Assembly (NCBI RefSeq): GCF_020723905.1
Contig: NZ_DYHZ01000002.1
Coordinates: forward strand, 1-64,000
Direction of reading: 5' to 3'
DNA from: Anaerolinea thermophila
GTDB taxonomy: Bacteria > Chloroflexota > Anaerolineae > Anaerolineales > Anaerolineaceae
Length of the DNA stretch: 64,000 nt
The first letter of the stretch is position 1. The number at the start of each line of letters is the position of its first letter. Under the pieces are notes generated by a model, which did no database searches, was not told the origin of the DNA, and saw only the letters and a list, made by a program, of their open reading frames with translations. The position numbers and the translations under genes were made by a program. Shown one piece after another: positions 7,097 through 20,027 of this stretch.

Positions 7097-7124
7097 TTGA
7101 CTTATGCGCTCCAGCCCTTAAAAT
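7097..7124 (+). promoter_or_regulatory. Promoter of the ilv-leu operon leader
   Basis: TTGACT (7097-7102), a 16-base spacer and TAAAAT (7119-7124). The predicted start near 7131 leaves about 35 bases before the leader peptide ATG and about 236 bases before ilvD. Confidence 0.65.
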
Positions 7125-7165
7125 AGGGCGAAATTCACCCGAAAAGGTAATCTATCTACCGGCTT

Positions 7166-7285
7166 ATGCATTCGTTCTTCTCGCTGTTCATTCTGTTCCT
7201 TATTGCGGTTCTCGTAATTATCCTCGAGAACCCGTTACCCATTTGGGCGGTCAGGATGAGCGCAGGAAGGAACGAAGAGCACTAA
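7166..7285 (+). CDS. ilv operon leader peptide (attenuator)
   Basis: A 39-codon reading frame from ATG 7166 to TAA 7283-7285. Fifteen of the first 20 residues are Phe, Ile, Leu or Val (F4, F5, F8, F11; L7, L10, L12, L16, L20; I9, I13, I18, I19; V15, V17). L24, I26 and V29 follow, then a hydrophilic tail. This is the composition of a ribosome-mediated attenuation leader. It sits between a promoter and an intrinsic terminator upstream of ilvD. The Shine-Dalgarno is weak (AAAAGG about 20 bases upstream). A small membrane protein is the alternative reading, but the matching antiterminator argues for a regulatory role. Confidence 0.75.
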   Translation: MHSFFSLFILFLIAVLVIILENPLPIWAVRMSAGRNEEH

Positions 7286-7342
7286 TTCAATCCAACGCAA
7301 ATGCAGACCAGAAGAACCGCCCAATCGGGCGGTTCTTTTTTT
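7231..7342 (+). promoter_or_regulatory. Transcription attenuator of the ilv-leu operon
   Basis: The terminator is an 11-bp perfect stem, AAGAACCGCCC (7312-7322) / GGGCGGTTCTT (7327-7337), loop AATC, with T7 at 7336-7342. TTGGGCGGT at 7243-7251, inside the leader reading frame, is exactly complementary to ACCGCCCAA at 7316-7324, giving a 9-bp antiterminator. A protecting hairpin can form between CCG/CCC (7232-7240) and GGG/CGG (7245-7250). A ribosome stalled on the Ile/Leu/Val/Phe codons at 7175-7225 would leave 7243-7251 free to disrupt the terminator. This mechanism is inferred from base pairing. Confidence 0.75.
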
Positions 7343-7366
7343 CAACCTTTGTCCTGTGGAGATGTC

Positions 7367-9034
7367 ATGCGATCAGACCGAATCAAAACTGCCCTTGAAT
7401 TTGCCCCTCACCGTGCTTTGCTGAAAGCCACGGGCGTCACCGATGCCGACCTGCACAAGCCTTTTATCGCGGTGGTCAACTCTTACGTGGATATTGTTCC
7501 CGGACACGTGCATCTGCAGGCTTTTGGAAAACGCGTTAAAGACGCTATCCGCGCGGCTGGCGGCGTGCCCTTTGAGTTCAACACCATTGCCGTGGATGAC
7601 GGCATTGCCATGGGACACGAGGGGATGAAATTTTCCCTGCCCTCGCGTGAACTGATCGCCGACTCCATCGAGACGATGCTCTCCGCTCATCCTTTTGACG
7701 GTATGGTGTGTATCCCCAACTGCGACAAAATTGTGCCCGGCATGCTCATGGCAGCGGTGCGAATGAACCTGCCGGCAATTTTTATCTCCGGTGGACCGAT
7801 GCCCGCCGGAAGAACCCCCGACGGTGAGGTGATTGACCTCATCTCGGTCTTTGAGGGGGTGGGCGCGGTGCAGGCGGGGAGAATGGACCGTCGCCGTCTG
7901 AAGGTGCTGGAAGATTACGCCTGCCCTTCCTGCGGTTCCTGCTCGGGCATGTTTACCGCCAACAGCATGAACTGCCTGATGGAAGCGCTGGGCATTGCCC
8001 TGCCGTACAACGGGACGGCGCTTGCCAGTACCCCCGAACGCGAAGCGCTGGCAGATCGTGCCGCCGCGCTCATCCTGCAACTGGTTGAGAAAGACCTGCG
8101 CCCGCGCGACATCATCACGCTGGAGGCGCTGGACGATGCCTTTGCGCTGGATATGGCAATGGGCGGTTCAACCAACACCATCCTGCACGCGCTGGCAATT
8201 GCTCACGAGGCGGGCATTGCTTACCCGCTGGAACGCATCAATCGCATCTCGGCGCAGGTGCGCCATCTCTGCAAGGTCAGTCCGGCGGGTCAATGGCACA
8301 TGGAGGATGTGCACCGTGCGGGCGGTATTCCCGCCATCCTCAACGAAATTCAGCGTGCTACGGGCATGCTCCACCTCGACCGCCCGACGGTGGCGGGGGT
8401 CTCGATGGGGGAAGCCCTGCGCGGCGCGGCAATCCGCGATGAGGAAGTCATTCATCCGTGGGAGAATGCTCACTCGCAGGACGGCGGGCTGGCGGTGTTG
8501 TTTGGCAACCTTGCGCCGCGCGGCGCGGTGGTCAAAACGGGTGGGGTGGTGCCTGCCATGCGCCGATTCAGCGGTCCGGCGCGCATTTACGAATCGCAGG
8601 AGGATGCCCTGCGCGGTATTCTGGCGGGTGAGGTTCAACCCGGCGAGGTGGTGGTGATTCGCTATGAAGGTCCCAAAGGTGGTCCCGGCATGCAGGAGAT
8701 GCTCAGCCCGACCAGTGCCATCATGGGCATGGGGCTGGGCGATAAGGTGGCGCTGATTACCGATGGACGCTTCTCTGGCGGAACGCGTGGGGCGTGTATC
8801 GGGCATGTCTCGCCCGAAGCCGCCGCGGGCGGTCCCATTGCCGCTCTCCAGCCGGGGGACGTGGTGGAAATGGATCTGGACGCGCGGCGCCTGGATGTGC
8901 GCCTGCCGCAGGAAGAAATTGAGCGGCGGCTGGCGGCGCTCCCGCCTTTCCAGCCGCGCACCACCAGCCGCTGGTTGCGCCGCTACCAGCATTTTGTCAC
9001 CAGCGCCGATTGCGGTGCGGTGCTGGAGTTTTAG
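7367..9034 (+). CDS. ilvD: Dihydroxy-acid dehydratase
   Basis: 555 residues. It dehydrates 2,3-dihydroxy-isovalerate and 2,3-dihydroxy-3-methylvalerate to the 2-oxo acids of valine and isoleucine synthesis. Signatures: [14 protein letters not shown], the Fe-S ligand region [12 protein letters not shown] (near 115-126), [17 protein letters not shown], and [20 protein letters not shown] near the C-terminus. The start is ATG 7367 with GGAGA before it. An in-frame ATG at 7301 is rejected because it would place the attenuator terminator inside the coding region. First structural gene of the operon. Confidence 0.96.
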
Positions 9035-9055: not shown

Positions 9056-10774
9056 ATGAAACGCACAGGTGCACAGATTGTTTGGGAAACGCTGATGCGC
9101 GAAGGGGTAGAGGTGGTGTTTGGCTATCCGGGGGGCGCCAACCTGCCGATCTACGATGCCATGCTGGATTATCCCGTTCGCCATGTGCTGGTACGCCACG
9201 AGCAGGGCGCCGCGCATATGGCAGACGGCTACGCCCGCGCCAGCGGCAGGGTGGGGGTGGCCATGGCAACTTCAGGTCCCGGCGCCACCAATCTGGTGAC
9301 GGGCATTGCCACTGCCATGATGGACTCCTCGCCGACCGTGTTCCTGACCGGACAGGTGGTGAGCAAATTCATCGGGTATGACGCCTTTCAGGAGACCGAT
9401 GTCACCGGTATCACCCTGCCCATCACCAAGCACAATTATCTGGTGACCCGGGTGGAAGAACTGGGCGATGTTCTCCGGGAAGCCTTTTACATTGCCCGCA
9501 CCGGACGTCCCGGTCCCGTGCTGGTGGATATTGCCAAAGACGCTCAGCAGAACAGCACCGACTGGGAATACAGCGACCGCCCCATCCAGTTGCGCGGCTA
9601 CCGTCCCAACCGTCATCCCCTGAGCAGGCAGGTGGAGCAGGCCCTGGAGATGCTCTCTGCGGCGCGCAAACCGCTTATCCTTGCCGGACGCGGTGTTCTG
9701 CTCTCCGGCGCCATGCGCGAACTGCGCGAGTTTGCCGAACGCGCTCACATCCCCGTGGCGGTGACCCTGCTGGGCATTGGCGCGTTTCCCGCCTCGCATC
9801 CGCTCAGCCTGGGAATGATGGGGATGCACGGTGAGGCGTGGGTTAACCAGGCGATTCAGGAATCGGATTTACTGCTGGCGTTTGGCATGCGCTTTGACGA
9901 CCGCGTTACCGGCAATCTCAAAACCTATGCCCCCAACGCCCGCAAGATTCATCTGGACATTGACCCTGCCGAAATCAACAAGAACGTGCGCGTGGATCTG
10001 GGCATTGTTGGCGATTTGCGCGAAAGTTTGCAGGAGTTCCTCGACCACCTGCCGCAGATGGATCACTCCGAGTGGGTGGAGCACATCAACACCCTTAAGG
10101 GTGAGTCGGCGGTGCGCGATATTCAGTACCTGCCCCCCGATGGACATCTCTACGCCGCGCATGTGATCCACGACCTGTGGCGATACACCGGCGGCAATGC
10201 TCTGGTGGTGACCGATGTGGGGCAGCATCAGATGTGGACGGCGCAGTACTACCGCCACGATCAGCCGTTCCAGTGGATCACCTCCGGCGGGCTGGGGACG
10301 ATGGGCTTTGGACTGCCCGCCGCCATTGGCGCCAAGATTGCCCGCCCCGATGCCGAGGTGTGGGCAGTGGTGGGCGATGGTGGTTTCCAGATGACCGCAG
10401 CCGAACTGTCCACTGCCGCGCAGGAGGGCGTCAAAGTGAACGTTGCCATCATCAACAACGGCTTCCTCGGCATGGTGCGTCAGTGGCAGGAGTTCTTCTA
10501 CGACCGCCGTTACGCCGCTACCCCCATGCGCAGTCCCGACTTTGTCAAACTGGCAGAGGCGCACGGCTTGACCGGTCTGCGGGTGTGGCGGCGCGAGGAG
10601 GTTTTCGATGCCATTCAGCGCGCCCGTGAAACCGACGGCACGGTGGTGATTGATTTCCGCGTGGAGCAGGAAGACAGCGTGTATCCCATGGTGCCGGCTG
10701 GCGCCGATTTGCATAACATGATTCGCCGACCGGTGCGCAACCCGCTGGTGGAAACCGCACAGGATGAGATGTAG
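9056..10774 (+). CDS. ilvB: Acetolactate synthase, catalytic (large) subunit
   Basis: 572-residue thiamine-diphosphate enzyme joining two pyruvates to acetolactate, or pyruvate and 2-oxobutyrate to acetohydroxybutyrate. Visible: [16 protein letters not shown], the catalytic Glu49 in [19 protein letters not shown], the central FAD-binding domain, and the ThDP/Mg motif [12 protein letters not shown] to [12 protein letters not shown]. The start is ATG 9056, preceded by AAAGGAGGAG; a TTG at 9038 is in frame but lies before the SD. It is followed by its regulatory subunit 14 bases downstream. Confidence 0.96.
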
Positions 10775-10788
10775 GAGGAGGAAGCCGT

Positions 10789-11328
10789 ATGCGTCACACA
10801 CTGGTTGCTTTAGTGGAAGATAAACCCGGCGTGCTTAACCGCGTGGCGTCGTTGTTCCGCCGTCGGGCATTCAATATCGAGTCGCTTACCGTCGGGCATA
10901 CCGAACAGCCCGGATTGTCGCGCATGACGATTGTGGTGGATGGCGATGATGTCGCCATCGAACGCCTCACCGCTTACCTGTACAAACTGGTCAACGTGGT
11001 GCATGTGGAAGACCTGACCCATGTGCCTGCCGTGACCCGCGATCTGGCGATGATCAAGGTGGCTGCGCCTCCCGAAACCCGCACGCAGGTGATGCAGGTG
11101 GTGGATGTTTACCGCGCCCGCATTGTGGATGTGACCACCCAGTCGCTCATCATCGAAGTTACCGGCGATGAGGAAAAAATCGAGAGTTTTGTGGAAGTGC
11201 TGCGCCCGCTGGGTATTCTGGAAATGGTGCGCACCGGATTGCTCGCCATGTCGCGCGGCGGGGCGCCGCTTTACCCGCCACCCAACGGGAACGGCAATGG
11301 ACATCACGCCGCCGCGTCGGCGGATTGA
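10789..11328 (+). CDS. ilvN: Acetolactate synthase, regulatory (small) subunit
   Basis: 179 residues. An N-terminal ACT domain begins HTLVALVEDKPGVLNRVASLFRRRAFNIESL, which normally binds valine for feedback inhibition; the C-terminal half (from about 85) is the ALS_ss_C domain that stimulates the large subunit. A Gly/Asn/His-rich tail (about 162-176) is unusual and probably disordered. RBS GGAGGAGGAAG precedes ATG 10789. Confidence 0.94.
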   Translation: MRHTLVALVEDKPGVLNRVASLFRRRAFNIESLTVGHTEQPGLSRMTIVVDGDDVAIERLTAYLYKLVNVVHVEDLTHVPAVTRDLAMIKVAAPPETRTQVMQVVDVYRARIVDVTTQSLIIEVTGDEEKIESFVEVLRPLGILEMVRTGLLAMSRGGAPLYPPPNGNGNGHHAAASAD

Positions 11329-11359
11329 GAAAATCAAAAACGTCAAAGGAGACACTGGA

Positions 11360-12412
11360 ATGGCAAAGATGGATTTTGCAGGAGTGCTGGAAGAAGTCGT
11401 TACCCGAGAGGAGTTTCCCCTCAGCCGGGCGCAGGAAGTGTTAAAGGATGAGGTAGTGGCAGTGCTGGGCTATGGCGTGCAGGGACCGGCGCAGGCGCTT
11501 AACATGCGCGATAACGGCGTCAGGGTCATCGTCGGCGTCAACCCCGGCGGGCGTTCGTGGAACAAAGCCCTGCAGGACGGCTGGGTGCCGGGCGAGACAC
11601 TCTTCTCCATGGAAGAAGCCGCCGAACGCGGCACCATTGTGCAGTACCTCGTCTCGGACGCAGCCCAGAAACTGACCTGGGAGCGCATCCGCCCCTGCCT
11701 GAAAGAGGGAGATGCCCTGTACTTCTCGCACGGCTTTGCGGTGGTGTATCGCGATCAGACCGGCGTGGTGCCGCCGCCTTATGTGGATGTCATCCTGGTG
11801 GCGCCCAAAGGTTCCGGCACCAGCGTGCGCGCCAACTTCCTCGCCGGGAGCGGCATCAACTCCAGTTTTGCCGTCGAGCAGGACTACACCGGGCGCGCCC
11901 GCGAACGCACCCTGGCGGTGGGCATTGCCATCGGTTCGGGCTATCTTTTCGAGACCACCTTCCAGCACGAGGTGTACTCCGACCTGACCGGCGAACGCGG
12001 CGTGCTGATGGGCGCGCTGGCAGGCATCATGGAAGCCCAGTACCAGACCCTGCGCGCGCATGGACACACCCCCTCCGAAGCCTTCAACGAGACGGTGGAA
12101 GAACTCACCCAGAGTTTAATTCGGCTGGTGGCGCAGAACGGAATGGACTGGATGTACGCCAACTGCTCCACCACCGCCCAGCGCGGCGCCCTGGACTGGC
12201 GCCACGAGTTCCGCAACGCCACCCTGCCGGTGTTCGAGCGTCTGTACCAGTCGGTGGCGTCTGGCGCCGAGACGCGCCGCGTGCTGGAAGCCAACAGCCA
12301 GCCCGATTACAAAGAAAAACTGGAAGCCGAACTGCGCGAGATGCGCGAGTCGGAAATGTGGCGGGCGGGAGCGCTGGTGCGCTCTCTGCGCCCGGAAAAC
12401 TGGCAGAAGTAG
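11360..12412 (+). CDS. ilvC: Ketol-acid reductoisomerase
   Basis: 350-residue class I enzyme that isomerises and reduces acetolactate or acetohydroxybutyrate with NAD(P)H and Mg2+. VVAVLGYGVQGPAQALNMRDNG is the dinucleotide-binding loop; FSHGFAVVY, APKGSG and VYSDLTGERGVLMGAL carry catalytic and metal ligands. The N-terminal MDFAGVLEEVVTREEFPLSRA extension resembles the Bacteroidetes-type enzyme rather than the common MKVYYDKD type. The beta2-alphaB loop (VNPGGRSW) lacks the usual Arg-x-Gly arrangement, so cofactor preference is uncertain. The start is ATG 11360 after AAAGGAGA; a longer upstream frame overlaps ilvN and is rejected. Confidence 0.95.
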   Translation: MAKMDFAGVLEEVVTREEFPLSRAQEVLKDEVVAVLGYGVQGPAQALNMRDNGVRVIVGVNPGGRSWNKALQDGWVPGETLFSMEEAAERGTIVQYLVSDAAQKLTWERIRPCLKEGDALYFSHGFAVVYRDQTGVVPPPYVDVILVAPKGSGTSVRANFLAGSGINSSFAVEQDYTGRARERTLAVGIAIGSGYLFETTFQHEVYSDLTGERGVLMGALAGIMEAQYQTLRAHGHTPSEAFNETVEELTQSLIRLVAQNGMDWMYANCSTTAQRGALDWRHEFRNATLPVFERLYQSVASGAETRRVLEANSQPDYKEKLEAELREMRESEMWRAGALVRSLRPENWQK

Positions 12413-12429
12413 CCTGCTTCCTTTCTGTA

Positions 12430-12481
12430 CCCTCCCCTGAGAATGGCTCTCCCCGCTCCCGGGGAGAGCCCGAGGGAGGGG
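12430..12481 (+). repeat. Nested palindrome in the ilvC-leuA intergenic region
   Basis: A perfect 10-bp stem GGCTCTCCCC (12445-12454) / GGGGAGAGCC (12461-12470) sits inside an outer pairing of CCCTCCCC (12430-12437) with the GGGAGGG region (12474-12481). No T tract follows, so it is not a standard terminator. It may be an mRNA stabilising or processing hairpin, or a copy of a dispersed palindromic repeat. Its 3' arm abuts the leuA Shine-Dalgarno. Confidence 0.6.
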
Positions 12482-12493
12482 AAGGAGAATGAG

Positions 12494-14119
12494 ATGAGCG
12501 ACGATTACGTACGAATTTTCGATACCACCCTGCGAGATGGCGAGCAATCGCCGGGGGCAACCCTGACCAGCGCTGAGAAACTGGAAGTTGCCCGTGGACT
12601 GGCGCGCCTCGGCGTGGATGTCATCGAAGCCGGCTTCCCCGCCGCCTCGCCCGACGATCTGGAAGCCGTGCGGCGCATTGCCGTGGAGGTGGGCAACCCC
12701 GCCGATGGCGGACGAGCCCCCATCATCTGTGGCTTGGCGCGCGCCACCCACAGCGACATTGACAAAGCCTGGGAAGCGGTGCGCCCCGCGCGGCATCCGC
12801 GCATTCACACCTTCCTTGCCACTTCGGAAATTCACATGCAGTACAAACTGCGCATGACCCGCCAGCAGGTGCTGGAGCGGGTGGAGGAGATGGTGTCGTA
12901 TGCCCGCAGTCTGTGCGAGGATGTGGAGTTCAGCCCCGAAGATGCTGGACGCAGTGACCCCGCTTTCCTCTACGAGGTGCTGGCGGTTGCCATCCGCGCG
13001 GGAGCCACCACCCTCAACATCCCCGACACGGTGGGCTACACCACCCCCGACGAGTTCGGCGCCCTGATTGCGGGCATTTTGCGCCACACCCCCGGCATCG
13101 AGCACTGCATCGTCTCGGTGCACTGCCACAACGATCTGGGTTTAGCCACCGCCAACACGCTGGCGGGCTTGCGGGCGGGCGCGCGTCAGGCGGAGGTGAC
13201 CATCAACGGCATTGGCGAGCGGGCTGGCAACACCGCCCTCGAAGAAGTGGTGATGGCGCTCCACACCCGTCCCAACCTGTACGGCTTGCGCACTGGCATT
13301 GACACCACCCAGATCACCCGCCTGAGCAAACTGGTCAGCAACTACACCGGCATGCCCGTTCAGCCCAACAAAGCCATTGTGGGCGCCAACGCCTTTGCCC
13401 ACGAGGCTGGCATCCATCAGGACGGTATGCTCAAGCACACCCTGACCTACGAAATCATGCGCCCGGAGACGGTGGGCGCCACCCAGAGCAAACTGGTGCT
13501 GGGCAAGCACTCCGGACGCCACGCGCTGAAAACCCGTCTGGCTTCGCTGGGATACGCTCTGGGCGAAGAGGAGATGGATCAGGTCTTTGAGCGCTTCAAA
13601 AATCTGGCAGATCGCAAGAAGGTCATCACCGATGCCGATCTGGAGGCGCTGGTTTCGGATGAACTGTACCAGCCGCGCGAACTGTACGCGCTGGATGGTT
13701 TACAGGTTGCCTGTGGCACGATGGGCATGCCGACCGCCACGGTGCGTCTGCGCGGACCGGATGGACAATTGTACGTCCATGCGGCGGTGGGAACCGGTCC
13801 GGTGGATGCCACCTACAAAGCCATTGACGCCATTGTCGGCGTGCCCATCACCCTGCTGGAGTTCGTCGTCCATGCCGTCACCGAGGGCATTGACGCGCTG
13901 GGCGAGGTCACCGTGCGCATTCAGGGCGAGGACGGGCTGTCTTCGGTCAGCGCTCAGCGCGAGGACGACCTGCCGCGCACCTTTGGCGGCTACGGCGCGG
14001 ATACCGATATCGTCGTCGCCAGCGCCAAGGCGTATCTGGCGGCGCTGAACAAACTGCTGGTGGCGCTCGGCGCCTTCGGTCCGGCGGAGAAATCTGCCCA
14101 ACATTCGCTGGTTTCGTAA
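12494..14119 (+). CDS. leuA: 2-isopropylmalate synthase
   Basis: 541-residue DRE-TIM metallolyase condensing 2-oxoisovalerate with acetyl-CoA, first step to leucine. [18 protein letters not shown] begins the barrel; [16 protein letters not shown] and [20 protein letters not shown] carry metal ligands. The C-terminal LeuA dimer domain (about 390-530) mediates leucine feedback. RBS GAAGGAG and ATG 12494; an in-frame ATG at 12443 falls inside the palindrome and is rejected. Confidence 0.95.
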
Positions 14120-14150
14120 GAAGGAAATTTTTTCCCAAAGGAGGAGTTGT

Positions 14151-14363
14151 ATGAATCCCCATCGCGTTTCATTTGATCCCATGAAGGAAGGTCACCCCGA
14201 CCCGTTTTCCCAGCCCAATACCATCCCCAACGGCTGGGACCTGACCGACGCCAATCTGGCAAACCACCCGCAGGCGCGGGCGGCAGATATGAACGGCACG
14301 GCTTTCGAGCAACATCTCCGCTTCACCGCAGGTGCGTATGAGCGCCCCAAAGACGTTGTTTGA
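14151..14363 (+). CDS. Small ORF (70 aa) between leuA and leuC
   Basis: A 70-residue hydrophilic protein with the best Shine-Dalgarno in the operon (AAAGGAGG at 14138-14145) and ATG at 14151. Third codon positions are strongly G/C, as in the neighbouring genes. It has no cysteines or membrane segments and is rich in Pro, Asn and Asp, with a segment [13 protein letters not shown]. Its last 26 bases overlap the leuC start in another frame, so leuC translation is probably coupled to it. No family recognised. It could be a LeuC accessory or assembly peptide, or chiefly a translational coupler. Confidence 0.7.
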
Positions 14364-15765
14364 AAAAATCTGGGAACGCCACGTGGTTGTGGAGCCGCCC
14401 GACTCCCCGGCGGTGCTGTACATTGACCTGCATCTGGTGCATGAGGTGACCTCGCCGCAAGCCTTCAGCGGACTGCGGGCGCGCGGTTTGCGGGTGCGCC
14501 GACCGGAGCGCACCGTCGCCACCATGGATCACGGCGTGCCCACCCTCTCGCAGGGCGGCAACGGCTCTGGGCGGCTTGCCTTTGCCGATGAATTGAGCCG
14601 CCGTCAGATTCAGCAGTTGGAAGAGAACTGCCGGGAGTTCGGCATCCGCCTGATGGGACTGGACAGCCCGAATCAGGGCATCGTGCACGTCATCGGACCC
14701 GATCTGGGACTGACTCAACCGGGCATGACCATCGTATGCGGCGACAGCCACACCGCCACCCACGGCGCATTTGGCGCGCTGGCGTTCGGCATCGGTACCA
14801 GCGAGGTGGAGCATGTGCTCGCCACGCAGTGCCTGCTCCAGCGCCGACCGAAAACCTGCGCCGTGCGCATCGAGGGACGCCTGAATCCGGGTGTGACTGC
14901 CAAGGATGTCATTCTGGCGCTGATTGCTCAAATCGGGACGGCGGGCGGCACGGGTTACGTCTTTGAGTATATGGGCGAAGCCGTGCGCGCCATGAGCATG
15001 GAAGAGCGCATGACTCTGTGCAACATGTCCATTGAGGGTGGTGCCCGCGCGGGCATGGTTGCACCCGACGACACCACCTTTGAGTATCTGGCAGGGCGTC
15101 CCTTTGCTCCGCAGGGCGAGGATTGGGAGCGCGCGGTGGCGTACTGGCGCACGTTGCCCGGCGATGATGGTGCCGTGTTCGACCGTACGGTCACGCTGGA
15201 CGCTTCCCGGCTGGAGCCGATGGTCACCTACGGCACCAATCCCGGCATGGGCGTGCCCATCAGCGGGCGCATTCCTGCGCCAGAGGAGATGAAAGATCCC
15301 AGCCAGCGCGCCGCGCTGGAGAAAGCCCTGACGTACATGGATTTGCGTCCGGGCGCGCCGGTGCAGGGTCAGCGGGTGGATGTGGTCTTCATCGGCTCAT
15401 GCACCAACGGGCGCCTTGCCGACCTGCGCAGCGCCGCACGCCTGCTCAAAGGCAGGCGGGTAGCGCCCGGAGTGCGCGTGCTGGTGGTGCCCGGCTCTCA
15501 ACAGGTCAAGCGCGCCGCCGAAGCCGAAGGGCTGGATCGGGTGTTCCGGGAGGCGGGCGCCGAGTGGCGGGAACCGGGCTGTTCCATGTGCATTGCCATG
15601 AACGGCGATCAACTGGAGCCGGGACAGTATGCCATCAGCACCAGCAACCGCAACTTTGAAGGGCGTCAGGGCAAGGGAGGGCGCACCTTCCTCGCCAGCC
15701 CACTGACCGCCGCCGCATCCGCCCTTACCGGCGTTATCACCGATCCGCGCCCACTGCTCTCCTGA
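14338..15765 (+). CDS. leuC: 3-isopropylmalate dehydratase, large subunit
   Basis: 475-residue aconitase-family protein that isomerises 2- to 3-isopropylmalate, and probably also processes citramalate from CimA. Fe-S ligands are in [14 protein letters not shown] and [46 protein letters not shown] is diagnostic. Start ATG 14338 overlaps orf70; GTG at 14332 is the only nearby alternative. No independent Shine-Dalgarno was seen, consistent with coupling. Confidence 0.95.
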
Positions 15766-15775
15766 GGAGGTCATC

Positions 15776-16366
15776 ATGCAGTCCTTTACCACCCTTACCT
15801 CGCACGTGGTTGTCCTTCCGGTCAACGACGTGGACACCGATCAAATCATCCCGGCGCGCTTTCTGAAGACCACCGACAAAACCGGTCTGGGAGCCAACCT
15901 GTTTGCCGACTGGCGCTACCTGCCCGATGGTTCGCCCAACCCGGATTTCGTCCTCAACCGTCCGCAATCGCAGGGGGCGCAGATCCTGCTGGCGGGCGAT
16001 AACTTCGGCTGTGGCTCATCCCGCGAGCACGCTCCCTGGGCGCTGTTGGGGTGGGGCTTCCGCGCGGTCATCTCCACTACCATCGCCGACATCTTCCGCA
16101 ACAATGCCCTCAAGAACGGTTTGTTGCCGGTGGTGGTCAGCCCGCAGGCGCACGCCCGCTTGATGACGCTGTACGCCGCCGACCCGACTTTGCCTTTGAC
16201 CATTGATCTGGCTTCTCAAACCCTGCGTCTGGCAGATGGAACGCAGGAATCCTTCCCGATTGACTCGTTCAGCAAGACCTGCCTGCTGAATGGGGTGGAC
16301 GAACTGGGCTATCTGCTCAGTCTGGAGGCTGAAATTACCCGTTACGAACAATCCATGCTCCGCTGA
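15776..16366 (+). CDS. leuD: 3-isopropylmalate dehydratase, small subunit
   Basis: 196-residue swivel domain that completes the LeuC active site. [16 protein letters not shown] and [29 protein letters not shown] are the family signatures. TGAGGAGGTCATC precedes ATG 15776, ten bases after the leuC stop. Confidence 0.95.
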
Positions 16367-16391
16367 ACGGGGCTTTTCTCTGAGGTGTGCC

Positions 16392-17990
16392 ATGAAAATC
16401 GAAGTGTACGACACCACCCTGCGCGATGGAACCCAACGAACCGACATCTCTTTATCGGTGAACGACAAACTCAACATTGCCCGCCGTCTGGATGCGCTGG
16501 GCGTGGATTTCATCGAAGGGGGCTGGCCCGGCTCCAATCCCAAAGATGCCGAGTTCTTTACCCGTGCCGCCCAAATGACGTGGAAGCACGCGCAGATTGC
16601 CGCTTTTGGCTCCACCTGTGCGGTGGAGAAGACGCCCGAGCAGGATGAAAACATCCGCGCTTTGCTGGAGTCGCGCGCGCCGGTCTGCACGGTGGTGGGC
16701 AAGTCCTCGGTGCTGCACGTCCACGAGGTTCTGCGCACCACGCTGGAGAACAACCTGCGCATCATCGAGCAGTCGCTGGCGTATCTGGCGGCGCAGGGAC
16801 GCCGGGTGGTGTACGATGCCGAACACTTCTTTGATGGCTACAAGGAGGATGCCGAATATGCCCTGCAAACGCTGGCGGCGGCACTGCGCGGCGGCGCGGA
16901 GACGCTGGTGCTGTGCGACACCAACGGCGGCAGTCTGCCGTGGGAGGTGGGCGAGATCGTCCGGGCAGTGCGGGTGCGCTTTCCGCAGGCAAAACTGGGC
17001 ATTCACGCCCACAATGATGGCGAGTGCGCGGTGGCAAACTCCCTGGCGGCGGTGCGCGAGGGCTGTGTGCAGGTGCAGGGGACGATCAACGGCTATGGCG
17101 AGCGCTGTGGCAATGCCAACCTGTGCTCCATCCTGCCCGATCTGGAGTTGAAGATGGGCTACGCCTGCCTGCCGGAGGGGCATCTGGCGCAGTTGACCGA
17201 TCTTTCCCACTACGTGGCTGAAGTTGCCAATCTGGCGCCGGACGAGCATCTGGCATACGTGGGCAGGGCGGCGTTTGCCCACAAAGGGGGCATTCATGTC
17301 GCCGCCATGCGGCGCACGCCGCGTTCCTACCAGCACATTGACCCGGCGCTGGTGGGCAACTCCTCGCAGGTGGTGGTTTCGGAACTTTCCGGGCGCGGCA
17401 ACCTGCTCAGCAAAGCCGAGGAGCACGGGATTCCGGTGGAGGAGGGGGTGGATGTGAGCGCCGTCCTGCGGCAGGTCAAGGCGCTGGAGGCGCAGGGCTT
17501 TTCCTTTGAAGCCGCCGATGCCTCAGTGATGCTGATGCTGTTGCGCCAGAAGCCCGATTACCAGCCGCCCTTTGCGCTGGTAGATTTCACCGCCGGGGTA
17601 GAACACCGCCAGGGACGGGGCATCTTTGCCGAAGCCACCGTCAAGGTGCGGGTGGGTGAGCAGGTCATCCACACCGCCGCCGAGGGCAACGGTCCCGTCG
17701 CCGCGCTGGATGCCGCCCTGCGTAAAGCCCTCTTGCCCTACTACCCTGCCATCTCCGCCTTCCACCTTTCGGATTACAAGGTGCGCATTCTGGACGGACC
17801 CAACGGCACCTCTGCCACCACCCGCGTGTTGATCGAAACGCGCAACGGACACCGCTCCTGGGGCACGGTCGGCGCCAGCACCAACATCATCGAAGCCTCG
17901 TGGCGCGCGCTTGCCGATTCCATCGAGTACGGCATCTGGGTTGCCGAACATCAGGCAGAACCTGCGCCGGCAGTTCCATCATCACTCTGA
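16392..17990 (+). CDS. cimA: (R)-citramalate synthase
   Basis: 532-residue DRE-TIM metallolyase joining pyruvate and acetyl-CoA to citramalate, the first step of the threonine-independent route to isoleucine. YDTTLRDGTQRTDISLSVNDKL and IEGGWPGSNPKDAEFF mark CimA rather than LeuA. HAHNDGECAVANSLAAV and TINGYGERCGNANLCSILPDL carry metal ligands; a C-terminal regulatory domain follows from about 400. ATG 16392; the longer in-frame extension overlaps leuD. Product goes through LeuCD and LeuB, both encoded beside it. Confidence 0.94.
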   Translation: MKIEVYDTTLRDGTQRTDISLSVNDKLNIARRLDALGVDFIEGGWPGSNPKDAEFFTRAAQMTWKHAQIAAFGSTCAVEKTPEQDENIRALLESRAPVCTVVGKSSVLHVHEVLRTTLENNLRIIEQSLAYLAAQGRRVVYDAEHFFDGYKEDAEYALQTLAAALRGGAETLVLCDTNGGSLPWEVGEIVRAVRVRFPQAKLGIHAHNDGECAVANSLAAVREGCVQVQGTINGYGERCGNANLCSILPDLELKMGYACLPEGHLAQLTDLSHYVAEVANLAPDEHLAYVGRAAFAHKGGIHVAAMRRTPRSYQHIDPALVGNSSQVVVSELSGRGNLLSKAEEHGIPVEEGVDVSAVLRQVKALEAQGFSFEAADASVMLMLLRQKPDYQPPFALVDFTAGVEHRQGRGIFAEATVKVRVGEQVIHTAAEGNGPVAALDAALRKALLPYYPAISAFHLSDYKVRILDGPNGTSATTRVLIETRNGHRSWGTVGASTNIIEASWRALADSIEYGIWVAEHQAEPAPAVPSSL

Positions 17991-18011
17991 CAACGAAGGG
18001 AAGTCTCATCC

Positions 18012-19076
18012 ATGCACAAACACATCGTTCTTCTTCCCGGCGACGGCATTGGTCCGGAGGTAGTGTCTGCCGCCAGACGCGTGCTGGATGCCGTTGCCGC
18101 CCGTCTTCATTTGAATCTGACGTACGTGGAGCATCTCATCGGCGGATGCGCCATTGACCGGCAGGGCACGGCGCTGAGCGCGGAAACCCTGCGCGCCTGC
18201 CAGAACGCCGATGCCGTCCTGCTGGGTGCGGTGGGCGGTCCGCAGTGGGATGATCCCACGGCGCCGGTGCGCCCGGAGCAGGGCTTGCTGGCGCTGCGCA
18301 AAGGGCTGGGGGTGTTTGCCAACCTGCGTCCGGTGCGCGTCTATCCTTCGCTGGTGGATGCCTCGCCACTGCGACCGGAAAAACTGCAGGGCGTGGACCT
18401 GCTGGTGGTGCGCGAACTGACCGGCGGGCTGTACTTTGGCGAACCCAAAGGGCGCTTTGAGGAGAATGGGCATCTCCGCGCGGTGGATACGCTGGAATAC
18501 CGGGATGACGAAATCGAGCGCATCCTCGATCTCTCTTTTCGGCTGGCGCAAAACCGCCGCCGCAAACTGACTCTGGTGGATAAAGCCAACGTGCTGGAAT
18601 CCTCGCGCCTGTGGCGGCAGATTGCCACGCAGATGGCAAGCCGCTATCCGGATGTTCGTCTGGATGTTCTGCTGGTGGATACGGCGGCAATGCGCCTGAT
18701 CACCCATCCGGCGAATTTCGATGTGATCGTGACCGAGAACATGTTCGGCGACATCCTCACCGACGAAGCCGCCGTGCTCTCCGGATCGATGGGACTGCTT
18801 CCATCGGCTTCGCTGGGAGGAAGCGGACCGGGCTTGTACGAACCCATTCACGGCTCTGCGCCGGACATTGCCGGGCAGGGTATTGCCAATCCGCTGGGCA
18901 CCATCCTCAGCGCGGCAATGATGTTGAGGTATTCGTTCCATCTGGAAGAGGGGGCGCGCGTTGTGGAAATGGCGGTGGAGCGCGCGCTTGCCGAAGGCTG
19001 TCGCACCCGCGATTTGGGCGGCAGCCTGACCACCGAAGAGATGACCGGCGCTGTGCTGGAGCGCCTGGTTTTTTAA
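18012..19076 (+). CDS. leuB: 3-isopropylmalate dehydrogenase
   Basis: 354-residue NAD-dependent beta-decarboxylating dehydrogenase giving 2-oxoisocaproate; it can also oxidise methylmalate from the citramalate route. [14 protein letters not shown], the substrate-binding [29 protein letters not shown] and the metal-binding [22 protein letters not shown] are present. GAAGGGAAG lies before ATG 18012. Confidence 0.95.
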
Positions 19077-19103
19077 ATCATCACGCATCAGGGAGTACGC
19101 ATC

Positions 19104-20027
19104 ATGACCGATACACAGGAGTATATCTGGCTGGACGGGGAACTGGTGGAGAGCGAAAAAGCCACCCTGCCGTTCATGACTTCAGCCCTGCACTACGGAC
19201 TGGGGGTGTTCGAGGGCATCCGCTGTTACGAGACGCCGCGCGGACCGGCGATTTTCCGCCTTGCCGAACACATGGAGCGCCTGATCGACTCGGCGCGCAT
19301 TCTGGGCTTCCGCGACCTGCCCTACACGGCAGAGCAGTTGGGCGAAGCCTGCAAGGCGGTGGTGCGCGCCAACCGCCTCTCTTCCTGCTACATCCGCCCG
19401 CTGATTTTCTTCGACAGCAAGGTGAAGAATCTCAACCTCGATCAGGGCTGGGCGCGGGTGGGCATCGCCGCCTGGTACTGGGGGGCGTATCTGGGCGAGG
19501 AAGCGCTGGAAAAAGGCGCCCGGATGAACATCTCCTCGTACACCCGTCATCATCCCAACGTGATGATGACCAAAGCCAAGATCACCGGCAATTACGCCAA
19601 CAGCGTGCTGGCAAAGACCGAGTCGGTGCGGCTGGGCTTCGACGAAGCCATCATGCTCGACCCGCAGGGCTACGTTGCCGAATGCACCGGCGAGAACCTC
19701 TTCATCGTGCGCAATGGGGTCATCTACACGCCCGGCACCTGGGCGGTGCTGGAAGGCATCACCCGCGACGCGCTCATTACCGTGGCGCGCGATCTGGGCT
19801 ATTCGGTGGTGGAGACGCAGTTGAGCCGCGATCACCTCTACATTGCCGATGAGTGCTTCGTCAGCGGCACGGCGGCAGAGGTGGTGCCGGTGACCGAAAT
19901 TGACTTCCGCATCATTGGAACCGGGCGGCGCGGTCCGGTCACCCATGCCCTGCAGAAAGCCTTCCATGCGGTGGTGCACGGCGAAGATTCCCGTTATGCG
20001 CACTGGCTGACGTATGTCAACGATTGA
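19104..20027 (+). CDS. ilvE: Branched-chain amino acid aminotransferase
   Basis: 307-residue fold-type IV PLP enzyme for the last step to Val, Leu and Ile with glutamate as donor. YGLGVFEGIRCY, the PLP lysine (Lys159) in KAKITGNYANS, and YVAECTGENLFIV are diagnostic. GGGAG precedes ATG 19104. Such enzymes often also accept phenylalanine, notable because pheA follows eight bases after its stop. Confidence 0.95.
   Translation: MTDTQEYIWLDGELVESEKATLPFMTSALHYGLGVFEGIRCYETPRGPAIFRLAEHMERLIDSARILGFRDLPYTAEQLGEACKAVVRANRLSSCYIRPLIFFDSKVKNLNLDQGWARVGIAAWYWGAYLGEEALEKGARMNISSYTRHHPNVMMTKAKITGNYANSVLAKTESVRLGFDEAIMLDPQGYVAECTGENLFIVRNGVIYTPGTWAVLEGITRDALITVARDLGYSVVETQLSRDHLYIADECFVSGTAAEVVPVTEIDFRIIGTGRRGPVTHALQKAFHAVVHGEDSRYAHWLTYVND

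Follow-up and report, generated by a model that had tools for sequence, protein, structure and literature searches.

The window, that is, the whole 64,000-nucleotide stretch of Anaerolinea thermophila DNA analysed here, carries on its forward strand an ilv-leu operon of ten genes, all named by NCBIfam models. Its first gene, ilvD (7367–9034; TIGR00110), is followed by ilvB, ilvN, ilvC, leuA, leuC, leuD, cimA, leuB and ilvE (9056–20027). Immediately ahead of ilvD, on the same strand, lies an element that, judging from its sequence, is very probably a ribosome-mediated transcription attenuator of the operon. A first-pass annotation of this DNA had proposed a promoter, a 39-codon leader rich in Ile, Leu and Val codons, an intrinsic terminator at 7312–7342 and a perfect 9-bp antiterminator, arranged in the order that attenuation needs. 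These elements and their order were all recovered, with slightly wider limits for the terminator.

The promoter-like site TTGACT-16-TAAAAT (7097–7124) has a motif score of 10/12 and predicts a transcription start near 7131. Promoter-like sites scoring at least 9/12 occur upstream of 47 of 60 homologous leaders, compared with 172 of 1200 mononucleotide shuffles. Transcription from a site 3′ of 7342 finds no backing in the sequence: 24 nt remain there before ilvD, and they contain no promoter match. Directly 3′ of the −10 is a GC-rich stretch, AGGGCGAAA (7125–7133, forward strand), which occupies the position of a discriminator and resembles the CGGGCGAAA of many homologues. Among 30 leaders with good promoters, the stretch after the −10 reads CGGGCGAA in nine and AGGGCGAA in two. 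GC-rich discriminators after the −10 are linked to ppGpp control.

The leader open reading frame (ORF; 7166–7285, forward strand, with ATG at 7166 and TAA at 7283–7285) has 39 codons, MHSFFSLFILFLIAVLVIILENPLPIWAVRMSAGRNEEH, of which 14 specify Ile, Leu or Val (I/L/V), compared with 22.6% I/L/V in six proteins of the operon. The content of the operon matches these control codons, and a short ORF rich in codons for the operon's products is found both in the window and across loci. The window's leader ORF has no Shine-Dalgarno sequence; a 4-base match is present for two of 30 leader ORFs with promoter scores of at least 10/12, compared with 46 of 60 ilvD genes. In those 30 leaders, the distance from the predicted transcription start to the first in-frame start codon is 6 to 37 nt.

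The intrinsic terminator (7310–7342, forward strand) lies between the leader ORF and the first gene and consists of a 13-bp stem, AGAAGAACCGCCC-AATC-GGGCGGTTCTTTT, at about 7310–7339 and a T run at 7336–7342. Folded on its own, it reaches −21.6 kcal/mol. It was not listed by one program's terminator scan; a separate scan found the stem, which is plain in the sequence, and folding agrees. The left arm of the antiterminator, TTGGGCGGT (7243–7251, forward strand), lies within the leader ORF and pairs perfectly over 9 bp with ACCGCCCAA (7316–7324). The latter stretch of the terminator doubles as the right arm of the antiterminator, which therefore competes for the terminator's 5′ arm. The pairing has p=0.003, the floor of 300 shuffles in which dinucleotides were kept where the draw succeeded, and the fold of the whole leader has a z score of −5.75 against its shuffles.

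A hairpin, GGTTCTCG[TAATTATCCT]CGAGAACC (7207–7232, forward strand; −10.8 kcal/mol), spans Val-Leu-Val-Ile-Ile-Leu codons of the ORF; in the window it is separate from the antiterminator arm and 10 nt from it. Its 5′ arm, GCGGTTCT (7206–7213), is complementary to AGAACCGC within the terminator (7313–7320), and in the window the two could serve as an additional antiterminator. Between the antiterminator arm and the stop codon 3′ of it are 34 nt, a distance that is 24 nt in 15 of the 51 leaders compared; a ribosome that has reached the stop therefore leaves the arm uncovered, unlike in the textbook trp case. The arm-to-stop distance is +2 to +4 in L195, L196, L199, L209, L219 and L225 and −12 in L198, L201 and L211. 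In these leaders, from other families of the phylum, the arm would be covered by a ribosome at the stop or comes after the stop, an arrangement closer to the textbook one.

The longest ilvD reading frame begins at ATG 7301, about 10 nt 5′ of the terminator stem, and reads through the stem; it is a likely source of mis-annotation. The true start is likely to be 7367, since GGAG lies just upstream and the 12 relatives listed all start with MRSD or MRST at the aligned position. The first-pass annotation had expected gene callers to place the ilvD start inside the terminator. The terminator does lie in the longest ORF; the start at 7301 is upstream of the stem and not inside it.

Conservation and covariation in ilvD leaders

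IlvD was searched for in 201 genomes of the window's order, 98 of which had a match, and named relatives were added. The tally covers 75 of 79 ilvD upstream regions of 600 nt (L033, L034, L037 and L038 were left out), and the strict scan required an I/L/V-rich short ORF, a terminator no more than 70 nt from its stop and an antiterminator score of at least 16. This comparison, which the first-pass annotation had named as a check on its reading, found both the composition of the short ORF and the pairing conserved. The ORF, with an 8-codon window holding at least seven I/L/V codons, is present in 66 of 75 loci, compared with 7 of 450 shuffled regions. An ORF with a terminator is present in 60 loci and the full set with an antiterminator in 52, compared with none in the shuffled regions. 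Among 424 overlapping 600-nt tiles of the window, four have the ORF, one has the ORF and terminator and one has the full set, which is the element itself. These counts argue that the element is not due to chance.

Over the 600 nt scanned, an ORF with terminator is missing from 15 of the 75 loci and the full set from 23. Leader and terminator are present further upstream, as seen over 700 nt, in L128 and L131; L125 is at a contig end, and in L145 the ORF falls slightly short of the I/L/V threshold and is followed by a terminator at −491. An ORF is present and no qualifying terminator was found in L142, L010, L019, L111, L130, L133 and L144. The ORF just upstream in L146 and L147 looks like the end of IlvC, and ilvD may not be the first gene there. 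The 600-nt scan found no leader ORF in the named Chloroflexi L035 and L043, for which no excuse is apparent. Outside the tally, neither ORF nor terminator was found in the Chloroflexi L038 and L033. Long I/L/V-rich hydrophobic short ORFs precede ilvD in two MAGs, labelled Ignavibacteriae (L034) and Calditrichia (L037), and no terminator was found in either. Two leader ORFs occur in tandem in L116, L119, L036, L200 and L214, several with a terminator each; the first ORF of L200 and L214 may serve another gene.

Both same-genus genomes examined have full-length matches to a covariance model of the leader, of 62.7 bits in G578 (arms TTCGGGCGG and CCGCCCGAA) and 81.9 bits in G603 (arms TTGGGCGG and CCGCCCAA), 22–32 nt before ilvD genes whose products are 83% identical to the window's. 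A full leader match likewise precedes ilvD in G607, from another genus of the family. G597 and G611, which lack IlvD, have only weak, partial matches. G013, which has the most similar IlvD (88%), has a leader with ...MISFFSLFILIAILVLVIVLENPLPVWAVRVSAGESRSR and with arms identical to those of the window.

Alignment A1 contains 45 of 51 leaders, with L005, L023, L025, L029, L112 and L137 left out as close to others; it is also without L002, L003, L006, L007, L010, L014, L016, L017, L020, L022, L028 and L030. A2 contains 41 of the 45, without the second copies of L036 and L119 and without L148 and L150; L054 is the same record as L026. In A1, 86.5% of antiterminator cells pair, compared with at most 53.8% when the arms are slid, and 37 cells have both sides changed, compared with 14.6 in shuffles (0/500). 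For the terminator, 94.7% of cells are paired and two-sided changes occur in 8 of 10 pairs. Competition for one strand is clearest at position 7318, which is shared by both structures. Its pair with 7249 is G-C in 23 and A-U in 18 of 45 leaders, and its pair with 7331 is C-G in 25 and U-A in 16. The base at 7318 was compared with its two partners in 61 leaders: where it is T (22 leaders), A stands at 7249 in 20 and at 7331 in 19, and where it is another base (39 leaders), A is seen at neither position. On an IlvD tree of 74 rows, independent changes are few: the pair 7249/7318 shows 3 at either position, and the terminator side shows 3 to 5. Concordant independent pairs average 1.8/2, 2.5/4 and 1.9/3 for three column pairs with 0 discordant, too few for any sign test to reach 0.05. 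Weight therefore rests also on the differing arm and terminator sequences elsewhere in the phylum.

The hairpin over the control codons is a third element of the leader, kept beyond the needs of the peptide. Against redraws that kept the peptide and varied synonymous codons, the window's hairpin is stronger (p=0.005), as are the hairpins of 34 of 62 leaders at p≤0.05 (mean score 18.0 vs 12.8). The antiterminator reaches p≤0.05 in 17 of 62 leaders, the remaining 45 missing this level (mean score 21.6 vs 16.0), and has p=0.31 in the window. At least six of seven hairpin pairs are found in 37 of 45 aligned leaders, in either of two registers. The antiterminator GGG begins 12 columns after the end of the 3′ hairpin arm (A1 columns 87–98), and 43 of 45 leaders keep this spacing with an identical codon phase. 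The I/L/V run stops seven codons ahead of this GGG: I/L/V is found at codon −5 in 45 of 45 leaders, at −3 in 39, at −2 in 3 and at −1 in none. These 45 leaders were chosen for I/L/V content and not for a sharp end of the run. In enteric trp and his leaders, hairpin-stabilised RNA polymerase pauses lie 11–12 nt from the hairpin; by analogy, the control hairpin probably pauses RNA polymerase about 12 nt downstream, a hold that would last until the hairpin is melted by a ribosome.

Spread through the phylum and transporter leaders

R1, the covariance model built from 41 leaders, matched 152 of 400 genomes of the phylum at E≤0.01; many of these matches are bare terminators. Forty match regions were examined, 38 from other genomes and two from the window's own genome, and genes were assigned by tblastn. 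Branched-chain amino acid (BCAA) genes with more than 40% identity follow 22 of them, a distant IlvB-like enzyme (29–32% identity, with ilvC behind it in two cases) follows three and a transporter follows two. Thirteen matches were unassigned or judged false (L192, L197, L202, L204, L206, L209, L212, L217, L220, L221, L224, L226 and L227). Among the 22 BCAA matches, 19 precede ilvB-ilvN, and L190, L208 and L218 precede ilvE, ilvD and ilvE-ilvB, respectively; L190 belongs to the same order, nine belong to other families of the same class and 12 lie outside the class. The pairing was tested in 28 of 29 loci (L194 has no ORF in range), with p<0.05 in 20. BCAA leaders outside the order, many of which have CCTCCC-type terminators, reach p<0.05 for the antiterminator in 14 of 20 cases. 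The remaining eight of the 28 comprise two transporter leaders, the ilvE leader from within the order (p=0.79) and five loci with distant or unassigned genes. In its own genome, the window's leader is the one strong R1 match (88.9 bits; next 26.9), and the R1 search found no convincing second attenuator copy there; L226 was rejected as such a copy because it is a terminator between convergent genes.

The two transporter matches (60.0 and 55.6 bits) precede a putative ABC transporter of the hydrophobic amino-acid type in genomes of the window's family, G027 and G081, both of which lack an IlvD match. The G027 transporter has a Peripla_BP_6 substrate-binding protein followed by a LivH-like permease, and its NCBIfam matches are below their cut-offs. 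A search with the transporter protein found a match in 19 of 61 genomes of the family. With G081 added, 12 of 20 transporter loci have a leader of the same layout, with scores from 60 to 13.4 bits (L268, L189, L278, L280, L281, L271, L282, L277, L269, L279, L276 and L274), and eight have none; for the weakest, L274 (E=0.02), L276 and L279, layout counts for as much as score. Over the 13 codons up to the hairpin end, the 12 transporter leaders have 33 Trp/Tyr, 15 Met, 5 His and 49 I/L/V among 156 codons. The same region of 60 ilv leaders has no Trp/Tyr, no Met and 542 I/L/V among 779, a contrast that is exaggerated because the ilv leaders were selected for I/L/V. Six of the 12 transporter hairpins beat their synonymous redraws.

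The same RNA frame thus seems to have been given new sensor codons before an importer, a reading that is attractive and short of proof. A broader and tentative proposal is that the phylum has a codon-programmable scaffold, consisting of a hairpin with sensor codons and a 12-nt pause, a coding antiterminator arm and a terminator, in which codons and genes would be exchanged and the frame kept. It is possible, with similar reserve, that the exchange ran from Ile/Leu/Val to Trp/Tyr/Met/His and from synthesis to import, as exemplified by the amino-acid importers of the window's own family. The conserved codon hairpin, the phylum-wide spread, the transporter version and the missing leader Shine-Dalgarno sequence all go beyond the first-pass annotation.

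Folding states and rival explanations

The presence of the elements, their order, their conservation and their competition for one strand are established by the sequence and its comparison. How they might act together can be outlined as follows. RNA polymerase would start near 7131, and a ribosome would begin the Shine-Dalgarno-less leader ORF at 7166; a hairpin pause about 12 nt downstream would let the ribosome catch up with the polymerase. When charged Ile, Leu or Val tRNA is short, the ribosome would stall on the codons at 7208–7225 and cover and open the hairpin at 7207–7232, leaving 7243–7251 free just ahead. This arm would pair with the emerging 7316–7324, so that the terminator could not form and the operon would be transcribed. 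When amino acids are plentiful, the ribosome would pass the arm toward the stop at 7283 while the terminator is being made; such a fast ribosome would sit between the antiterminator arms and leave 7310–7342 free, and transcription would stop. With no ribosome, the default would be off, because the leader would fold on itself and hide the arm. We infer that the leader is translated, that the ribosome stalls and the polymerase pauses, and that the switch answers to amino-acid supply.

Thermodynamic folding of the window sequence is partly consistent with three such ribosome-dependent states, agreeing with them as long as the 3′ terminator arm has yet to be made. With the RNA masked to 7238 and folded before the 3′ terminator arm is made, antiterminator pairs have probabilities of 0.37–1.00. 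Without a ribosome these probabilities are 0.00, because the ORF folds on itself; a single-sequence fold of the window leader places the outer helix of this whole-ORF fold at about 7167–7195 with 7252–7281. With the RNA masked to 7297, as for a ribosome at the stop, the terminator alone forms. When the complete RNA is folded to equilibrium, the terminator prevails in all the states folded, that of the stalled ribosome included, so the switch would be kinetic if the model is right.

Leader peptides are strongly hydrophobic and the ORF is conserved, as would be expected if it encoded a real small membrane protein with an ordinary terminator at its end. Such a protein is very improbable, however, given that the RNA structure inside the ORF exceeds what a peptide needs and that the residues encoded by the arm differ by group (WAV, RMA, GQA, EAA) and the pairing stays. 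A terminator severing the ORF from ilvD, with a matching antiterminator, would moreover be pointless, and the hydrophobic run is partly swapped for Trp, Tyr, Met and His before the transporter. Reinitiation, by which a translated leader would mainly aid ilvD translation, is the least probable explanation. The available text of PMC4833913 proposes it for short leader genes with short stop-to-start distances, and a short leader gene does lie upstream of a structural gene here; the terminator stands between the two, ilvD starts 81 nt after the leader stop, and the ilvD genes of 46 of 60 loci have their own Shine-Dalgarno sequence.

A terminator governed by a T-box, a metabolite riboswitch or a protein in place of the ribosome is about as improbable as the membrane protein. 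T-boxes are known in Chloroflexi, according to the available text of PMC3766115, and a protein input is compatible with the sequence. Among 20 further loci, one T-box at threshold was found beside the leader of L225: at L225:1-206 (G346), it scores 133.7 bits and lies directly upstream of the ilvBN leader-peptide attenuator, which places two aminoacylation sensors in tandem. Against such inputs, no Rfam family, T-box RF00230 included, reached its gathering cut-off in the window, and none reached threshold in 20 homologous loci, of which 18 are ilvD leaders; control codons match the operon products and differ in the transporter leaders. The best weak Rfam match by E-value is Leu_leader RF00512, which spans the whole leader (7160–7340; E 0.0043) at 24.9 bits, half of its gathering score of 50, and so falls outside that family. 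Ribosome-mediated attenuation, the reading of the first-pass annotation, holds as far as sequence can tell, both in the conservation of ORF and pairing and in the position of the predicted transcription start.

Relation to known attenuators

The first-pass annotation knew of no described case in this phylum, and none was reported among the titles and abstracts listed in our literature searches; the broad survey of Lopatovskaya et al. 2010 could contain one. In the available text of PMC2965389, leader-peptide attenuation is described in 2010 as shown only in Proteobacteria and Actinobacteria, with a case in Firmicutes added, and in the available text of PMC4833913 Chloroflexi are one of the groups whose genomes are too few for a judgement. 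Chloroflexi are not mentioned in the available portions of PMC2965389, PMC1262725, PMC10272879 and PMC8632094, and appear in those of PMC9413887 only in a reference. If conserved throughout Chloroflexota, the attenuator would reveal how a large and little-studied phylum governs its amino-acid synthesis; the leader set also yields a covariance model that is ready for use. The occurrence of a single design with various codons before various genes provides natural experiments on the re-assignment of sensor codons. The fixed hairpin spacing offers a testable idea for the pacing of ribosome and polymerase without a Shine-Dalgarno sequence.

Enteric ilvGMEDA, ilvB and leu attenuators have an I/L/V-rich leader peptide, a terminator and a mutually exclusive antiterminator. 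The window's element has the same three parts and serves the same pathway; it differs in that its left arm lies inside the ORF, 3′ of the control codons, and in that these codons have a separate hairpin. T-box leaders (RF00230) sense aminoacylation, control the terminator of amino-acid genes and need no leader peptide. The window's leader is like them in terminator control by aminoacylation and unlike them in using a leader peptide, with no T-box detected in the window. Actinobacterial ilvB genes, in the available text of PMC1262725, are preceded by short ORFs with runs of I, V and L codons and a terminator, as in the window; their mode of regulation is called unclear there, and codon substitutions in S. 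coelicolor were without effect. A further related system is the Corynebacterium ilvBNC attenuator (ilvB-II motif), for which the available text of PMC10272879 and PMC11857589 gives a BCAA leader peptide (formed without a ribosome-binding site, according to the title of a cited reference), three RNA structures, a terminator and antiterminator that share a boundary GCC, and a proposed pause at the upstream hairpin. Compared by description, the window shares with it the BCAA leader without a Shine-Dalgarno sequence, the three structures, the common boundary of terminator and antiterminator and the proposed hairpin pause. It differs in phylum and in first gene, which is ilvB there and ilvD here, and the first hairpin blocks the antiterminator in Corynebacterium, whereas hairpin and arm are separate in the window. 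The mechanism is of a known kind; what is new, as far as searched, is the phylum, the codon hairpin at a fixed spacing and the transporter version.
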